This document shows positions 10,682-49,552 of a DNA stretch of 64,000 nucleotides, piece after piece; positions within the stretch are counted from its first letter, which is position 1, and each line of letters begins with the position of its first letter. The notes beneath the pieces are model-generated. The model saw nothing but the letters and a program-made list of their open reading frames with translations, made no database searches and was not told the origin of the DNA. Source of the stretch: a virus; IMG/VR virus record IMGVR_UViG_3300032782_000010, positions 1-64,000 of that record; one strand, 5' to 3'. Both the position numbers and the translations under genes were made by a program.

Positions 10682-12877
10682 GTGAGCTGGTACTCCAAGT
10701 CGCGGTGGTTGGCAGCAGCAATCTTCTTCTTGCTGCTGCCGTTCGTCGTTTTCTCCCAGACGAAGATCAGGCTGCACGACGCGGCGTCGGACGTCTCGGG
10801 CTACAAGAAGGCGGACCTGGCTCTTGGCCCTTCGAACACCACGGCGGTGACCAACACTCAGGCGAGCGGCACGGACATCCAGGTGACGAAGACCGGCGGC
10901 GGCTCGACGGTCGCCTGGATAACTCAGCCGTTTCAGACGGCGGTGACGATCTCGGGGACGGTGACGTGCAACATCTACGCGGGCGAGTCAGCGACGTCGG
11001 CGAACGCAGCGCTGCGCTGTCGTCTGTACAAGTACTCCGGTGGCTCGGAGGGCTCGACGTTCATGACGGCGAACATGTCGACCGAGCTCTCGACGTCGAC
11101 TACGACGGTTCGGAACTGGACTGGCTCGCCGACGAGCACGAGCTTCGCCGCTGGCGATCGCCTCGTCATCAAGCTCTTTCTCGAGAACTGCGCGACGAGC
11201 GGCTGTCCGACCGGGACGATGGCAGGATCTCAAACGGTGACGGTGGGCTACGACGGCACGACGGACGGCTCGAACGCCGCGAGCTGGGTGCAGACGAACG
11301 AGAACTTGGTCTTGAGTCCTTCGCCTTCGGTCTCCCTCACGACGAGCGATTCATGCGTGACGTCAACTTGCCGAGCCGCATCGCCGATCGACACGGTGAT
11401 CGGTTCGGATTCGGTCGCCGCAACGAAGGGATCTTCAAATACCGTAACACCGTCAGAAAGTTTGACGACCAGCGATTCGGCCCGCGCAACGACGTTCAAA
11501 TCTGGTGCTGTCTCGGAAAGTCTTACTACCACGTCTTCTGTGATTACGGCGGCGGGTTTCGTCAAGTCGCCCACCGAGTCGCTGACCACGACGTCTTCGT
11601 GCGCTACGGCTATTTGTCGACCGATAGGGGTGATAGATACGGTCATTGGCTTGGACTCGGTGGCGGCGAGTCATGGATACTTTACCGCCGTGTCGGAGTC
11701 GCTGACGACGAGCGCGTCCGGGAGCGGGTCGACCTCGACCTCGAAGAACGCGAGCGTGTCGGAGTCGCTGACGACGAGCGCGTCGTGCTCTGCGTCTACC
11801 TGCCGCCCGGTGCCGATCATCGAGACGGTGCTGAGCTCGGACTCCGTTATAACTGGTCACAACTTCAGCATCCCGATCACTCAGAACTTAAGTACTCAGG
11901 ACAACGTCAGCGGAAGGATCGCGAGCATATCTATCTCCGAGAGTCTGAGCACGTCGAGCTCGGCGACGGCCGTAAAGAACAACGGCGGGATAGTGGTAGA
12001 GAATCTGACGACGAGCTCTTCGGTGACGGCTACCAAGGTGGCGTCCGTATCGCTCTCAGAGAATCTAAGTACGATAGACTCCTTGCTTGCGCTACTCTGC
12101 GGCGCGATTCCGGAGAACCTGACGACCGTCGCGACGCCGGTCGTGACGGCTCAGTACAACAGAGTAGCGTCCGAGTCTCTCACGACGAGCGGGACGACGC
12201 TGACCTCGCTGGGGCTTCACGTTTCGGTATCTCAGAGCTTGACTACGACGGACTCGTCGGCGACGACGAGGTCTCTCCTGGTATCGGAGTCAGAGTCGCT
12301 CACTACGAACGACGCGGTCGCGACGTCGAACACGACGCCGAACAGCATCCACGTGAGCAACACCTTGACGACTACGGATCTAGTGACTGCGATCTCGGAC
12401 CAGTCGGTGAGCATAAACAACACGTATACTCCGACGGACGCGGTAGCTTCCCAGCTGGACGCCGCAGCGTCGGTAGCAGTGAGCATTCCTACCGTGGCGA
12501 GCGTGAACGTAGCCACGATAGCTCACTTCTCGGTGGACGTATCGGAGAGCTTAACTACGGCCGCGTCGGGATCGACGTTCTCTCAGTTCGTGAGATCGCT
12601 TACGGAGAACACCGCGACGTCGGACTTCGCGAGTCAGTTGAAGTCTCTCGGTGCGTCGGCCTCGGAGAACTTGGCTACAAGCGACGCGGTCACGGTGTCT
12701 TCTACCCATCTGCTCTTCGTCGCGGCGACGACGACTCTCCACGAGAGCGACGCCGTCGGGACGGTTTCGCCGCTAGCTGTTCAGATGGGAGAAGGGACGA
12801 GCACCCAGGACGTCGTTACGGTTACGGTCATAAGGTTTGGGACGCGGAGACGCTTCGTGATTATCGAAACACCATAG
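10682..12877 (+). CDS. Large secreted SLTT-repeat protein
   Basis: 731 residues. Signal peptide at residues 1-26 (RWLAAAIFFLLLPFVVFSQ). Residues about 27-210 form a beta-rich domain. From about 220 to 700 there are more than 15 copies of a roughly 19-residue repeat around [SE][SN]L[ST]T[ST][DS]. Three copies carry a cysteine pair (C-4-C) followed by a DTVIGSDSV-type partner, fitting disulphides formed outside the cytoplasm. Repeats like this build fibrous, surface-exposed adhesin-like proteins. GTG start chosen because it begins the signal peptide; a competing frame is open over the whole gene but encodes an Arg/Asp/Gly-rich product with no signal. The C-terminal part of the beta-helix protein at 14372 has two related repeats, so the two products may be functionally linked. 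Confidence 0.75.
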   Translation: MSWYSKSRWLAAAIFFLLLPFVVFSQTKIRLHDAASDVSGYKKADLALGPSNTTAVTNTQASGTDIQVTKTGGGSTVAWITQPFQTAVTISGTVTCNIYAGESATSANAALRCRLYKYSGGSEGSTFMTANMSTELSTSTTTVRNWTGSPTSTSFAAGDRLVIKLFLENCATSGCPTGTMAGSQTVTVGYDGTTDGSNAASWVQTNENLVLSPSPSVSLTTSDSCVTSTCRAASPIDTVIGSDSVAATKGSSNTVTPSESLTTSDSARATTFKSGAVSESLTTTSSVITAAGFVKSPTESLTTTSSCATAICRPIGVIDTVIGLDSVAASHGYFTAVSESLTTSASGSGSTSTSKNASVSESLTTSASCSASTCRPVPIIETVLSSDSVITGHNFSIPITQNLSTQDNVSGRIASISISESLSTSSSATAVKNNGGIVVENLTTSSSVTATKVASVSLSENLSTIDSLLALLCGAIPENLTTVATPVVTAQYNRVASESLTTSGTTLTSLGLHVSVSQSLTTTDSSATTRSLLVSESESLTTNDAVATSNTTPNSIHVSNTLTTTDLVTAISDQSVSINNTYTPTDAVASQLDAAASVAVSIPTVASVNVATIAHFSVDVSESLTTAASGSTFSQFVRSLTENTATSDFASQLKSLGASASENLATSDAVTVSSTHLLFVAATTTLHESDAVGTVSPLAVQMGEGTSTQDVVTVTVIRFGTRRRFVIIETP

Positions 12878-44627: not shown

Positions 44628-44664
44628 AAAAAAGGCGCGCCTCGAGAAGAGACGCGCCTTTTTA
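44628..44664. terminator. Bidirectional Rho-independent terminator
   Basis: GGCGCG (44634-44639) pairs with CGCGCC (44653-44658), with further CTC/GAG pairing inside. A-run 44628-44633 on the left and T-run 44659-44663 on the right give a U-tract on either strand. It lies between convergent late (+) and early (-) genes. Confidence 0.9.
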
Positions 44665-45562: not shown

Positions 45563-45738
45563 CGTCTTGGCCTCCTCTTTGGAGGACGAAGAAAGCCCTC
45601 CTCTACGAACACGCACATCGACTCGAGCATCGAGTATCGCTTGCCCAGTAGCGGGCATATGAAGAGTCTGCGAACCCACTTGTGCATGTTCGGTATCGTC
45701 TTGGTGTCGACTACGGCGAACGGAGCTCTTACTCTCAT
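45559..45738 (-). CDS. Small hypothetical protein, tandem paralogue
   Basis: 59 residues (MRVRAPFAVVDTK at the start, RRLFICPLLGKRYSMLESM in the middle). It is related to the following gene (45380-45562). The start overlaps the FkbM-like gene's stop (ATGA). The duplicated pair are small, basic-ended proteins that may act together or as alternatives. Confidence 0.58.
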   Translation of the reverse strand: MRVRAPFAVVDTKTIPNMHKWVRRLFICPLLGKRYSMLESMCVFVEEGFLRPPKRRPRR

Positions 45739-46613
45739 GTGATCGACCTCTGGAAGCCGACGTGATACTTCGGCTCCCACGAGTCGAAGCAGGCGTGGCA
45801 GAGCGTCCGCGCCTTATAGCCGAGCGTCTTCGCGCCGCACCCGCAGCAGAAACTGCCGAACATCAGCTCGTAGTCCCAGGCGGTGCTCGAAGAAGACACC
45901 TGCCTCACCCAGCTCCCGCAGCTCGTCCAGCCGTGAGACCAGCGCGGACGTATCACCGGGATGAATCCGGCCGACTCGATCTTCGCGACGACAGCCTCCG
46001 CCTTCGAGACCCAGTCCTTGCCTATCTTGTGGAAGTCGACGATCAGCGCCCGTATCCCGGGCTGGACTATCGGGTAGTCGTACTCCGCGCCCTCGACGTC
46101 TATCTTGACGACTGTGGCCTCCCGGACGGCCTCGACGTACGATACGGCCGGGACGGTGATGGGGTCCTTGGCCCTGGACGCGACGATCGAGTTGGAGACG
46201 CCAGTCTTGCGCGATAGATAGAAGTCCACGCTCTCTCGCGCGTCGCCGGTCACCGCGACGTTCGCGAGCTCCAGGTTCCTGCAGCTCGCGGCGTTCTTCT
46301 GGAGGACCGAGAACGAGAACGGCGTAGGCTCGTACGCGACGACGCGACGCACCGGGAAGCGCGCGCAGCGGAGCGCGTACGTTCCGACGTACGCGCCGAC
46401 GTCGACCACGAAGTCCGAGTGCCGCAGCTCGATCGACGAGCACTCGCGCATCGACGTGACGAACGGCTCTCGGACCCCGTCCGAGATCACCAGGTGGCCG
46501 CCGGGGACGCCGGCGCCTCTGTGAAATACGGTCGTCAGCTCGAGCTTCTGCCTGCGCTCGTACTTCTTCTTCGGCGCCTTCTCGACGACGAAGAGCTTCT
46601 CTTGTGTTCCCAT
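45735..46613 (-). CDS. FkbM-type SAM-dependent methyltransferase with C-terminal zinc-binding end
   Basis: 292 residues. FVVDVGAYVGTYAL (about 68-81), VVAYEPTPFSFSVLQKN (about 90-106) and VVKIDVEGAEYDYP (about 168-181) are the three landmarks of FkbM methyltransferases, which methylate hydroxyls on sugars or lipids. The C-terminal part has CCGCG and CHAC, a likely zinc site. It starts after GAGGAGAGAACC. It may modify host or phage surface sugars and complements the glycosylation cassette. Confidence 0.8.
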   Translation of the reverse strand: MGTQEKLFVVEKAPKKKYERRQKLELTTVFHRGAGVPGGHLVISDGVREPFVTSMRECSSIELRHSDFVVDVGAYVGTYALRCARFPVRRVVAYEPTPFSFSVLQKNAASCRNLELANVAVTGDARESVDFYLSRKTGVSNSIVASRAKDPITVPAVSYVEAVREATVVKIDVEGAEYDYPIVQPGIRALIVDFHKIGKDWVSKAEAVVAKIESAGFIPVIRPRWSHGWTSCGSWVRQVSSSSTAWDYELMFGSFCCGCGAKTLGYKARTLCHACFDSWEPKYHVGFQRSIT

Positions 46614-46704: not shown

Positions 46705-47400
46705 CTACGCCTTCTTCTCCGGCGCGTCCGAGACCTTCACGAACCGCTTCTTCGCGAGCAAGCTCAGGTGGTCGCGCATGAGACGGGGGAAGTCCTTCTT
46801 GTCCGTCTTGAGCTGCCCGTCCGCCTTTACGGCGGCCGCGACCTGCTCGACCGTCGACGGCTTCGCGAGCTTCTTCAGCGCGCGAAAGACGAGCACGGTG
46901 TGTGACTTGACCTCCTTGTCCGCGACCTGCTCGCTGAACTTCTCGCTCACGTTCGCCGTCGCGACCTCGTAGAGCTTGTCAGCGAGGATCGCGCGAACGC
47001 GAACCTTCGGCTGGGCCTTCGTCTTCTTGCTGCTGTTCGACATGTCGTTCTCCTCTTTTTGATTTTGGTACGAGTGTCTAGCGACGTCGTGCCGCGTACC
47101 GTCCGGCACGACCATCGTCTCGATGCTCCAGTGCTGCACTCCGGTGGGCGATGAGATCGGTATCTCCCTCCCGTCGCCGGTCCGTATGGTACGCTCTACG
47201 CGGTCGAGCAGCATGATCGTCGCCGAGCAGCTGCCGATGCTTATGACGTACCCCTTCCGGACGCGCCCCGTAGTCTCGAGCAGAAGTCCGAACCCGTCGC
47301 CCTCTCGGAGCGTACGGATAGGGACCTCGTTCTTCTGCGTGAACTCCACGGTCTCCGCCAGAGCGGTCGCGACCGTGGCTACTGCCTCAGGTTCTGACAT
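46705..47400 (-). CDS. Early protein of two joined modules with an internal start
   Basis: 231 residues. Module one (residues 1-118) has beta-like GFGLLLETTGRVRKGYVISIG and a nonpolar core. Module two starts at MSNSSKKTKAQPK (residue 120; ATG 47043) with AGGAG 8 bases upstream inside the coding frame, so a separate 112-residue product from 46705-47043 is likely too. Module two is Lys-rich with a winged-helix-like C-terminus (FPRLMRDHLSLLAKKRFVKVS), consistent with DNA binding. A hammerhead ribozyme (47423-47479) fills the leader. Confidence 0.68.
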   Translation of the reverse strand: MSEPEAVATVATALAETVEFTQKNEVPIRTLREGDGFGLLLETTGRVRKGYVISIGSCSATIMLLDRVERTIRTGDGREIPISSPTGVQHWSIETMVVPDGTRHDVARHSYQNQKEENDMSNSSKKTKAQPKVRVRAILADKLYEVATANVSEKFSEQVADKEVKSHTVLVFRALKKLAKPSTVEQVAAAVKADGQLKTDKKDFPRLMRDHLSLLAKKRFVKVSDAPEKKA

Positions 47401-47422: not shown

Positions 47423-47479
47423 GGTCTCGTCAGTGAGCGTCTCACGCTCAGACGGCGGGTGGATCCCGCCGTTTCGACC
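47423..47479 (-). ncRNA. Type II hammerhead ribozyme (copy 1)
   Basis: Read on the minus strand from 47479 to 47423: stem II 3' strand GGTC, GAAA, stem III CGGCGGG/CCCGCCG (7 bp, loop ATCCA), TC (cleavage after the C, complement of 47451), stem I TGAGCGT/ACGCTCA (7 bp, loop GAG), CTGACGA, stem II 5' strand GACC. All invariant core bases are present, the cleavage triplet is GUC, and the closing G10.1-C11.1 pair is kept. It begins at the stop codon of the upstream DUF932-like gene and ends 22 bases before the start of the 47400 gene. Confidence 0.92.
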
Positions 47480-48636
47480 TACTCTACGACCGTCATCGCG
47501 CCGCCGGCGAAGTCTTGAAGCTCGAGCTTCCGGCGCTCGTCGCTCGTCTCGTTCGCCAGCCAGGAGAGCGCGTTCGACCAGCGCCAAGCGGTCTGGCCCG
47601 CCGGGAGCAGCTCGACGTCGGCCGACGAGAACTTCTCGACGACCTTCTCGCCCTCCTCCTTGTTGAGGTGCTTCTTGACCCACGTCGTGATCGCGCTCGG
47701 CGCGATCTTCTCTTCGTTCGCTCGCTTGACCATCGCGAGGTAGCGGTTGACGGCGTCAGAGCCGAGTACGTTCTTCGTCACGTCGTTGACGGCCGAGGCC
47801 ATCGCCTTGGTGTCGAGCTCGTACGTCTGCGTGCTGAACTGGACGTTGTCCGGCAGCCGCTTCCCGAGGTGGACCTGAGAGAGAACGTCCTCGGTCGTCG
47901 CCAGGTTGGTGCACCACATGCGCTCGACGAAGCCGTTGACGGCCAGCTTCCCGTCGCCGTAGTCGGAGTCGCGTATCTCGGCGCCGAACGCCATGATCTC
48001 GCCGGGGAACGGCTCGAAGACGTACGGCAGGATGGCGCGAAGGTGGATCTTGGTCTGGAGCGCGAAGCCGTCTATCGGACGGGCGCCGAACTCCTGGATG
48101 CCCTTGATGAACGCCTCGAGCACCGGGCGCGAGTCGAGTCGACGATACTTGTCGCTCAGGAAGCCGCGGAGCTCGCCGCGTACGCTGCGGAGCAGGAAGC
48201 GGTCGCCGTTGAGGTGCGAGTAGACCTCGTTGAAGAAGTGCGCGACGAGCTTCGCGCCCCACTCGCCGCGAGAGCGGAGCTCGCTCACTACCGTGCCGAG
48301 GTTGCGGATACCGGCGCGGCCGGCGACCTGCGCTAGCGCGTGGTCGTGAACCTGGAGCTGCTGCTTGTCGGGGGTGATAGCGACCAGGCCGCGTTGGTTC
48401 GGCTCGAGCACTACGCCCGGTGCCCGCGCTGCGAAGAAGGCGCCGTTCGCCTCGAAGTGTAGCGCTCGGCCGAGCGCTACCTGGTCGGCGGGGATGTCCC
48501 TCTCTACCTGCTCGATCACGTTAGCGACTCGAGAGACGCTCCCGTGGATGCGCTCTTCGAGCCTCTTCCGGAACGTCTCTGCGGCTTCTCCTACTGCGAC
48601 GTCGTACGGACGCTCGTCGTGGTGTGTCATCGTCAT
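47479..48636 (-). CDS. DUF932-like phage/plasmid protein
   Basis: 385 residues. Segments typical of DUF932 proteins are visible: FLLRSVRGELRGFLSDKYR near 135-155, SRPVLEAFIKGI, and FVERMWCTNLATT near 230. These proteins are common in phages and plasmids and are often named after a possible ssDNA or replication role, but no activity is established. ATG 48636 was chosen because AAGGAGAACC lies just upstream; an open extension to 48753 would run through the ribozyme and is not a coding start. Its stop overlaps the next ribozyme. Confidence 0.8.
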   Translation of the reverse strand: MTMTHHDERPYDVAVGEAAETFRKRLEERIHGSVSRVANVIEQVERDIPADQVALGRALHFEANGAFFAARAPGVVLEPNQRGLVAITPDKQQLQVHDHALAQVAGRAGIRNLGTVVSELRSRGEWGAKLVAHFFNEVYSHLNGDRFLLRSVRGELRGFLSDKYRRLDSRPVLEAFIKGIQEFGARPIDGFALQTKIHLRAILPYVFEPFPGEIMAFGAEIRDSDYGDGKLAVNGFVERMWCTNLATTEDVLSQVHLGKRLPDNVQFSTQTYELDTKAMASAVNDVTKNVLGSDAVNRYLAMVKRANEEKIAPSAITTWVKKHLNKEEGEKVVEKFSSADVELLPAGQTAWRWSNALSWLANETSDERRKLELQDFAGGAMTVVE

Positions 48637-48672
48637 TTTGGTTCTCCTTCGAGCCTCGCGAGGCTCGTTCTC

Positions 48673-48732
48673 AGTCTCATCAGGCCGAGTGATACTCGGC
48701 GACGAGCGTCGACGTCGACGCTCGTTTCGACT
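48673..48732 (-). ncRNA. Type II hammerhead ribozyme (copy 2)
   Basis: Read on the minus strand from 48732 to 48673: AGTC, GAAA, a 22-nt self-complementary stem III (48724-48703, CGAGCGTC arm), TC (cleavage after the complement of 48701), stem I GCCGAGT/ACTCGGC (7 bp, loop ATC), CTGATGA, GACT. The core uses CUGAUGA, the standard form. It lies in the leader of the DUF932-like gene, and the start codon is about 37 bases further on. Confidence 0.93.
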
Positions 48733-48771
48733 TAGCGGGGGAGCATAAGGCACCTCCGTGAAAAAAAAATA

Positions 48772-48978
48772 TCAGCGAGCGCCGTGAGTTCCGTGCCCGG
48801 TAGGGCAGCAATCGCGGCAGAGCTCGGCGTATGGAGGAGAGAGTCTCTCGCTCTCTCCCGGCCCGTATGGGCGGCAGCAGTCAGGACAACGCATCAGCGT
48901 CGACGTTCCGGGGTTCGTCTTCGTCGGAAAGTCCGACCTCCCGCACTTGGCGCAACGTATATATCTAACGTTAGGCAC
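48772..48978 (-). CDS. Small multi-zinc-finger protein
   Basis: 68 residues. Three cysteine pairs or triplets: CAKC (9-12), CPDCC (31-35) and CRDCC (53-57), which could bind one or two zinc ions. GTG start; it overlaps the end of the upstream gene by eight bases. Early-operon position fits a host-takeover or nucleic-acid-binding role. No family recognised. Confidence 0.6.
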   Translation of the reverse strand: MPNVRYIRCAKCGRSDFPTKTNPGTSTLMRCPDCCRPYGPGESERLSPPYAELCRDCCPTGHGTHGAR

Positions 48979-49219
48979 GGGCGAGCCTCTCGATGCTCAT
49001 AGAGTGAGCAACCGAATCCACACTCACGTGCTCGTACGAGAGTCCGTCGCCCACGGTGAGGAACGTCACCTCGAGGTCCTTCATCCCGTGGTCGTACTCG
49101 AGCACGTGGTCGAGCTTCGTCGCGAGCGCGTCGCCGTCGACCGTCTCCGGCGCGAGCATGCCGACCACTGCGACTTTCCCGGTCCTGATATTTCGCACAG
49201 AAAACCATGCTTGTGTCAT
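48971..49219 (-). CDS. First gene of the minus-strand operon, small hypothetical protein
   Basis: 82 residues, alpha/beta pattern (AWFSVRNIRTGKVAVVG, GDALATKLDHVLEYDHG). GGGAG precedes the ATG. The gene follows a long structured leader that includes a hammerhead ribozyme. Being first behind the divergent promoter it is likely among the earliest expressed. No family recognised. Confidence 0.6.
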   Translation of the reverse strand: MTQAWFSVRNIRTGKVAVVGMLAPETVDGDALATKLDHVLEYDHGMKDLEVTFLTVGDGLSYEHVSVDSVAHSMSIERLARA

Positions 49220-49235
49220 CTTTGTTTCTCCCTTC

Positions 49236-49306
49236 GATCTCGTCAGTCGCCGCGTAACGGCGAGACGCTCGAGCTCGCGAGAACTTCGCGAGTGAGCGTT
49301 TCGATC
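49236..49306 (-). ncRNA. Type II hammerhead ribozyme (copy 3)
   Basis: Read on the minus strand from 49306 to 49236: GATC, GAAA, a long stem III made of CGCTC/GAGCG and an inner CTCGCGA/TCGCGAG part separated by a small internal loop, TC (cleavage after the complement of 49264), stem I TCGCCG/CGGCGA (6 bp, loop TTACG), CTGACGA, GATC. The core and G10.1-C11.1 pair are intact. It sits in the 5' leader of the first minus-strand gene, 16 bases before the start codon. Confidence 0.92.
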
Positions 49307-49522: not shown

Positions 49523-49552
49523 ATAATACTATTAACGATATTGCGATGTCCA
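49523..49552 (-). promoter_or_regulatory. Sigma70-like promoter for the minus-strand operon
   Basis: On the minus strand, -35 TGGACA (complement of 49547-49552) and -10 TATTAT (complement of 49523-49528) with an 18-bp spacer, in an AT-rich gap. It would start transcription about 300 bases before the 49219 start codon. Confidence 0.6.

Follow-up and report, generated by a model that had tools for sequence, protein, structure and literature searches.

Gene Content of a Minus-Strand Phage Operon

We analyzed a window of 64,000 nucleotides (positions 1 to 64,000 of IMG/VR record IMGVR_UViG_3300032782_000010), taken from a 65,929-base contig of an uncultured virus that carries a phage portal gene. 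On the minus strand of this window, a gene series comprises an 82-aa ORF (48971..49219, ATG at 49219), a 68-aa cysteine-rich (CxxC) ORF (48772..48978), a 385-aa gene of phrog_1362, a family of unknown function (47479..48636), a 231-aa gene (46705..47400) and a 292-aa FkbM-type methyltransferase gene (45735..46613). Apart from the methyltransferase gene, the operon consists of small genes or ones without a known function, and no family match was obtained for the 82-aa, 68-aa and 231-aa products. The only promoter-like sequence of the region (TGGACA-18-TATTAT, minus strand, 49523..49552) is a match to the consensus only; on this basis the operon would start upstream of the first ribozyme described below. 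At the end of the gene series, a GC-rich hairpin followed by a T run (minus strand, 44629..44663) was absent from the terminator scan, yet it looks like an intrinsic terminator and probably ends the operon.

A search for related loci with the phrog_1362 protein found no relative, and tblastn with the same protein reached distant phages only. Among the fetched loci, a homolog of a window operon gene was encoded by L196 only, at 22% identity. Within the 231-aa frame we observed an internal Shine-Dalgarno-ATG (at KEEND-MSNSSKK), because of which this frame may yield two products. Right after the 68-aa frame lies a run of nine T residues (48769-48761, minus strand) with no obvious hairpin before it, a possible site of termination or slippage.

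Three Type II Hammerheads and a Twister-P5 Ribozyme in Gene Leaders

The same strand contains three hammerhead motifs with one order of parts: a stem II strand, GAA, a closed stem III bounded by A15.1-U16.1, C17, a closed 17-nt stem I, CUGANGA and the second stem II strand. In all three, stems I and III are closed and stem II is open, which is the type II permutation. All three have CUGANGA, GAAA with A15.1-U16.1, and H17 at the three-way junction, with C as H17 in each case.

Hammerhead 1 (49306-49236) lies in the operon leader ahead of the 82-aa ORF, downstream of the promoter-like match and with no stop codon adjoining. Its stem II is GAUC/GAUC, stem III is extended, the stem I loop reads GUUACGC, C17 is at 49264 and the core CUGACGA at 49246-49240. 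The leader at 49560-49311 showed no unusual fold (z = -0.74). Hammerhead 2 (48732-48673) follows the 68-aa ORF, beginning about 40 nt past its stop, and occupies the leader of the phrog_1362 gene; it has stem II AGUC/GACU, a stem III of 10 bp, C17 at 48701 and the core CUGAUGA at 48683-48677. Between the phrog_1362 and 231-aa genes, hammerhead 3 (47479-47423) has stem II GGUC/GACC, a stem III of 8 bp, C17 at 47451 and the core CUGACGA at 47433-47427. Its first G is the final base of the TAG of the upstream gene, and a Shine-Dalgarno sequence and ATG follow within about 25 nt.

Just ahead of hammerhead 2 we noted a four-codon frame (ATG CTC CCC CGC TAA, 48746-48732, minus strand) with a strong Shine-Dalgarno sequence of its own (GGAGGTG), the TAA of which overlaps stem II. 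It is a possible leader peptide. Such short leader frames are not general, being found at 4 of 359 elements.

For each of the three elements, the minimum-free-energy fold is exactly the hammerhead (z = -1.95, -3.66 and -3.58), while the copies differ from one another in every stem. We also searched the window with a covariance model, R1, built from 59 aligned elements that all come from other phages, with no window element included. It matched precisely the three hammerheads, with 56.6, 50.3 and 58.3 bits for hammerheads 1 to 3 and E values of 6e-14 to 1e-11. A plus-strand core match at 11702 was rejected, having minimal 4-bp stems and long spans and not being found by R1.

The gene series continues with a ribozyme of another class. 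A Twister-P5 motif at 46694-46631 (minus strand) scores 49.2 bits with Rfam RF02684 (gathering cut-off 37.6), covering model positions 1-58, and is a full-length member. It lies between the 231-aa and methyltransferase genes, beginning 10 nt past the upstream TAG and ending 17 nt ahead of the FkbM ATG, and its placement matches that of the hammerheads: stop, ribozyme, Shine-Dalgarno, start. The gap after the FkbM gene contains no ribozyme, so the operon gaps are not all occupied.

A preliminary description of this DNA had proposed the three hammerheads, their stem II pairs and cuts after the C at 49264, 48701 and 47451. The elements are present with complete cores, the pairs were confirmed and the cut positions follow from the sequence. 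Its series of three stands as far as the hammerheads are concerned but is incomplete, the Twister-P5 element that continues it having been overlooked.

The Hammerhead Subfamily Lies Below Rfam Thresholds

At the gathering cut-offs of Rfam release 15, no hammerhead was called in the window. Permissive searches gave Hammerhead_3 as the best window matches, at 19.9 and 16.3 bits, below the cut-off of 48.5. The Hammerhead_II model RF02276 (gathering 37 bits) did not reach its threshold on any of the three elements, and at a loose threshold it returned unrelated sub-threshold places only, none of them a window hammerhead. All hammerheads in 13 related loci were likewise missed by Rfam. The preliminary description had named the Hammerhead_II search as a check that could refute the elements. 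Taken formally, the empty result at gathering counts against them, but it is misleading, because the Rfam models do not fit this hammerhead subfamily. RF02276 describes the same core and type II permutation and detects the Streptomyces phage arrays described below, whereas the window elements and the hammerheads of the 13 related loci stay below its threshold.

Relatives of the Window Hammerheads Show Extensive Covariation

Related elements are common in IMG/VR, which was scanned with three exact patterns, one per stem II variant; viral loci were drawn from the matches listed. In the 3.10 Mb of these loci, a scan that ignored stem II counted 428 complete elements, whereas 9.30 Mb of shuffles yielded a single one, which excludes chance. 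Stem II has at least 3 bp in 78 of 92 unique elements outside the search patterns, with many different sequences. One pattern run on bacterial genomes, a far larger collection, gave at least 44 elements. A match to a Christensenellales locus (L505) was discarded, its score of 17.2 bits being marginal.

In the 59-element alignment, 98.5% of the cells are paired and double changes number 325, compared to 94 in shuffles. All three stems covary in sequence among these phage relatives, and the invariant positions are all hammerhead catalytic bases. The earlier proposal that these motifs are catalytic RNAs under selection is thus strongly supported by covariation across many phages.

The subfamily has further common features. 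Stem I is a 17-nt hairpin with the loop GUNANGC in 300 of 375 unique viral elements, and the base before stem II is A in 88% of the elements. Where position 2 of loop I is U, the base 5' of stem II is A (277 of 277); where it is A, that base is T or C (23 of 23). The association has no exception, its Fisher value of 6.5e-35 is inflated by relatedness, and the A type occurs in 15 contigs. All three window hammerheads are of the U/A type. This covariation is consistent with loop I directly touching the flank of stem II. Four-base stem III loops are GNRA or UNCG in 156 of 230 cases, a stability beyond catalytic need, which in our reading reflects selective pressure for a sturdy 3' hairpin.

Two variations on this plan were also observed. 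As a second tertiary solution, one locus (L477, G008) carries a series of near-identical hammerheads with an apparent pseudoknot between loop I and the tail (UGAGC/GCUCA). Another group, 27 of 375 elements (e.g., L034, L101, L122, L148 and L235 of L004-L351), has NUCAG in the tail that follows stem II, a sequence able to base-pair with the catalytic CUGAN; its N covaries with N7 (T-A 19, C-G 6, T-G 2) without mismatch. This pairing could represent an off-state or a 5' hairpin formed after cleavage. In the window elements, no pseudoknot between loop I and the 3' tail was seen by eye. With a stem II of just 4 bp and no recognizable classical pseudoknot of loop I with the tail, these elements could be slow to cleave at low magnesium.

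Ribozymes Occupy the Gaps Between Phage Genes

The placement of the window elements recurs in other phages. An upstream stop codon ends -4 to +2 nt from stem II in 207 of the 284 viral elements that have an upstream frame, and 60 of these share exactly one base between stop codon and stem II. Any stop trinucleotide is found at that spot in 319 of 375 elements versus 387 of 1496 control positions. The next start codon is mostly 9-39 nt downstream, with a Shine-Dalgarno-like sequence in 287 of 329 cases. Genes downstream of viral hammerheads encode a median of 95 aa and are mostly of unknown function. Ribozymes sit between co-directional genes, with a stop close upstream and a start close downstream. 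In the window, this layout is directly intergenic for hammerhead 3 and the twister, whereas hammerhead 2 lies further from the preceding gene and hammerhead 1 in the leader.

Whole-record searches revealed up to 12 hammerheads per record in the order gene-ribozyme-gene, with near-identical copies in some arrays (L472, L477). A hammerhead consensus search of cultured phages led to five Streptomyces phages (L500-L504), in which the hammerheads lie within one gene block and none is annotated in the records shown. Rfam Hammerhead_II matches number 7 in Amethyst, 10 in Marav, 11 in Issmi, 8 in Daudau and 11 in Salutena (47 in total). With Rfam and R1 matches combined, a hammerhead occupies 45 of the 54 gaps of at least 55 nt in these blocks. 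The gene-by-gene arrays and this occupancy lend support to the serial processing system that the preliminary description had suggested.

Twister-P5 elements form parallel series of up to 15 per phage record, with 15 (L484/G073), 9 (L482/G071) and 8 (L493/G082) in single records. A stop upstream and a start downstream accompany 27 of the 33 non-edge copies, and in 11 of 28 cases the stop codon and the ribozyme overlap by one base (+1 overlap). None of 50 hammerhead-bearing records contained a Twister-P5 element, and R1 gave 1 marginal match in 19 Twister-P5 records; the mix of both classes in the window operon is therefore unusual among the records examined. A BLAST search of cultured phages with the twister consensus yielded partial, weak matches only.

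A Proposed Model of Operon Punctuation by Self-Cleaving Ribozymes

With a probability of about 0.8, we propose that the window operon is punctuated by self-cleaving ribozymes that would split its polycistronic phage mRNA. One minus-strand transcript of about 49.5 to 44.6 kb would carry a ribozyme ahead of four genes, three hammerheads and one Twister-P5. Each ribozyme would fold upon transcription and cut the RNA in the gap between two genes, so that the second gene keeps a Shine-Dalgarno sequence and start codon of its own. Hammerheads cleave after H17. Since H17 sits between closed stem III and closed stem I, both new ends would be hairpins: the upstream message would end in the stem III hairpin with a 2',3'-cyclic phosphate, and the downstream message would begin with the stem I hairpin and a 5'-OH. 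The hairpin ends may protect and uncouple the messages, allowing separate making, translation and decay per gene. We hold this last step with less confidence than the cleavage, as it derives from geometry and tetraloop choice only.

The punctuation model draws on the RNA structures and how they covary, on the order of the genes and on the reappearance of this arrangement in other phages; from these we infer cleavage in infected cells. The mixed hammerhead/Twister-P5 operon suggests that cleavage itself is the trait under selection. In many phages, serial ribozymes probably divide a single long message into separate ones with hairpin ends. We also lean, with distinctly more reserve than for the window operon, towards a wider statement: in many phages, an interchangeable type II hammerhead or Twister-P5 would punctuate operons as a general rule, joined to every stop and preceding every start, and would cut the transcript into single-gene messages whose ends are protected by their own hairpins. 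Much of this punctuation would have been overlooked, because one subfamily scores below the Rfam thresholds.

Two other roles for cleavage are live alternatives. A ribosome terminating at a stop codon that overlaps stem II would mask GAAA along with the 5' strand of that stem, and cutting would then occur only once upstream translation slackens. The stop codons that touch or overlap stem II, the one-base overlap of Twister-P5 elements and the four-codon frame at hammerhead 2 would all suit such gating by translation. The compact intergenic spacing of phages alone would explain the stop-flush position, however, and with hammerhead 1 lacking an adjoining stop and short leader frames so rare, we regard gating as unlikely. 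Cleavage could instead lower expression, through 5' decay or loss of a protective leader and perhaps under the control of a ligand or of folding, because the 5'-OH product of the glmS ribozyme in Bacillus is degraded faster. All elements do sit in gene leaders, and the tail-CUGAN hairpin of the 27 elements mentioned above would switch the ribozyme off; that hairpin is missing from all three window elements, no aptamer-like domain is attached, and the downstream Shine-Dalgarno sequence is mostly retained. Ribozymes before nearly every array gene also suit constitutive processing better than gene-specific control, and we consider attenuation quite improbable.

Readings without a catalytic role in gene expression fare much worse. 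Hammerheads are common in mobile elements (PMC3088659) and some arrays hold near-identical copies, as expected if the motifs were mobile or selfish remnants with hammerhead structure and no part in phage gene expression. Against this, the window copies differ in every stem, there are no common flanks, the register with stop and start codons is fixed, and an unrelated ribozyme class takes the same position, which makes such an origin very improbable. Least credible of all is an incidental hammerhead likeness of RNase III sites or transcription-termination signals. The early mRNA of T7 shows that host RNase III cutting at intergenic hairpins has a similar outcome, but every invariant position here is a hammerhead catalytic base, stem II and the loop contacts covary, and complete elements hardly arise in shuffled sequence.

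Comparison with Known Systems

The role of bacterial and phage hammerheads has been open since their discovery. A single function for these ribozymes is indicated by their position relative to stop and start codons, by the array size and by two unrelated classes taking the same place, and it can be tested in the cultured Streptomyces phages, which carry 7-11 elements each. A large group of hammerheads, defined by a covarying tertiary contact, is missed by current annotation.

Type II hammerheads were described by Perreault et al. in 2011, together with clusters that flank prophage genes and a proposed processing into single-gene mRNAs; their figure labels hammerheads of types I, II and III (PMC3088659). 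A triple hammerhead around ardA in an Agrobacterium tumefaciens prophage cleaves in vitro and in E. coli (PMC3088659). Multiple hammerheads as a processing system, as put forward in the preliminary description, are hence supported but not novel, since the same idea and a cleaving triple were published then. As in those clusters, several hammerheads flank individual phage genes here. The present arrays differ in reaching 12 per record, in their stop-codon-flush position and in the twister within the same series. A loop I to 3' tail pseudoknot is the majority feature of type II hammerheads (PMC3088659), whereas the present subfamily combines a fixed 17-nt stem I with a stem II of 4 bp and, apparently in place of that pseudoknot, a contact between loop I and the flank.

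We regard as probably new the mixed hammerhead/twister operon, the subfamily below the Rfam thresholds, the stop-codon-flush placement and the arrays in cultured phages. In the open-licence papers searched we did not find described the array sizes, the stop-codon register or a subfamily with the covarying contact, nor parallel Twister-P5 arrays, a mixed operon or testable cultured phages.

In an early polycistronic transcript of the haloviruses HF1 and HF2, the HHphage hammerhead precedes a start codon by 13 nt, and the mapped 5' end of this transcript falls within three nt of the cleavage site (PMC3088659). Unlike the window series, HHphage occurs singly, has insertions in its core and belongs to an archaeal virus. 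Theta ribozymes of gut phages are self-cleaving and used in phage RNA processing, but they are an HDV-like class and were proposed for tRNA 3' trailers rather than mRNA (PMC10879173). Self-cleaving ribozymes have further been reported, in work cited in PMC10085705, to be enriched in each other's vicinity and close to genes of Mu-like phages.

The punctuation model also has a counterpart among protein-based systems, and that counterpart differs from the window operon in using a host protein enzyme instead of built-in ribozymes. In the T7 early operon, intergenic cuts by host RNase III give single-gene messages with hairpin ends. If the model holds, the phage arrays would be an RNA-only counterpart to the RNase III processing of T7.
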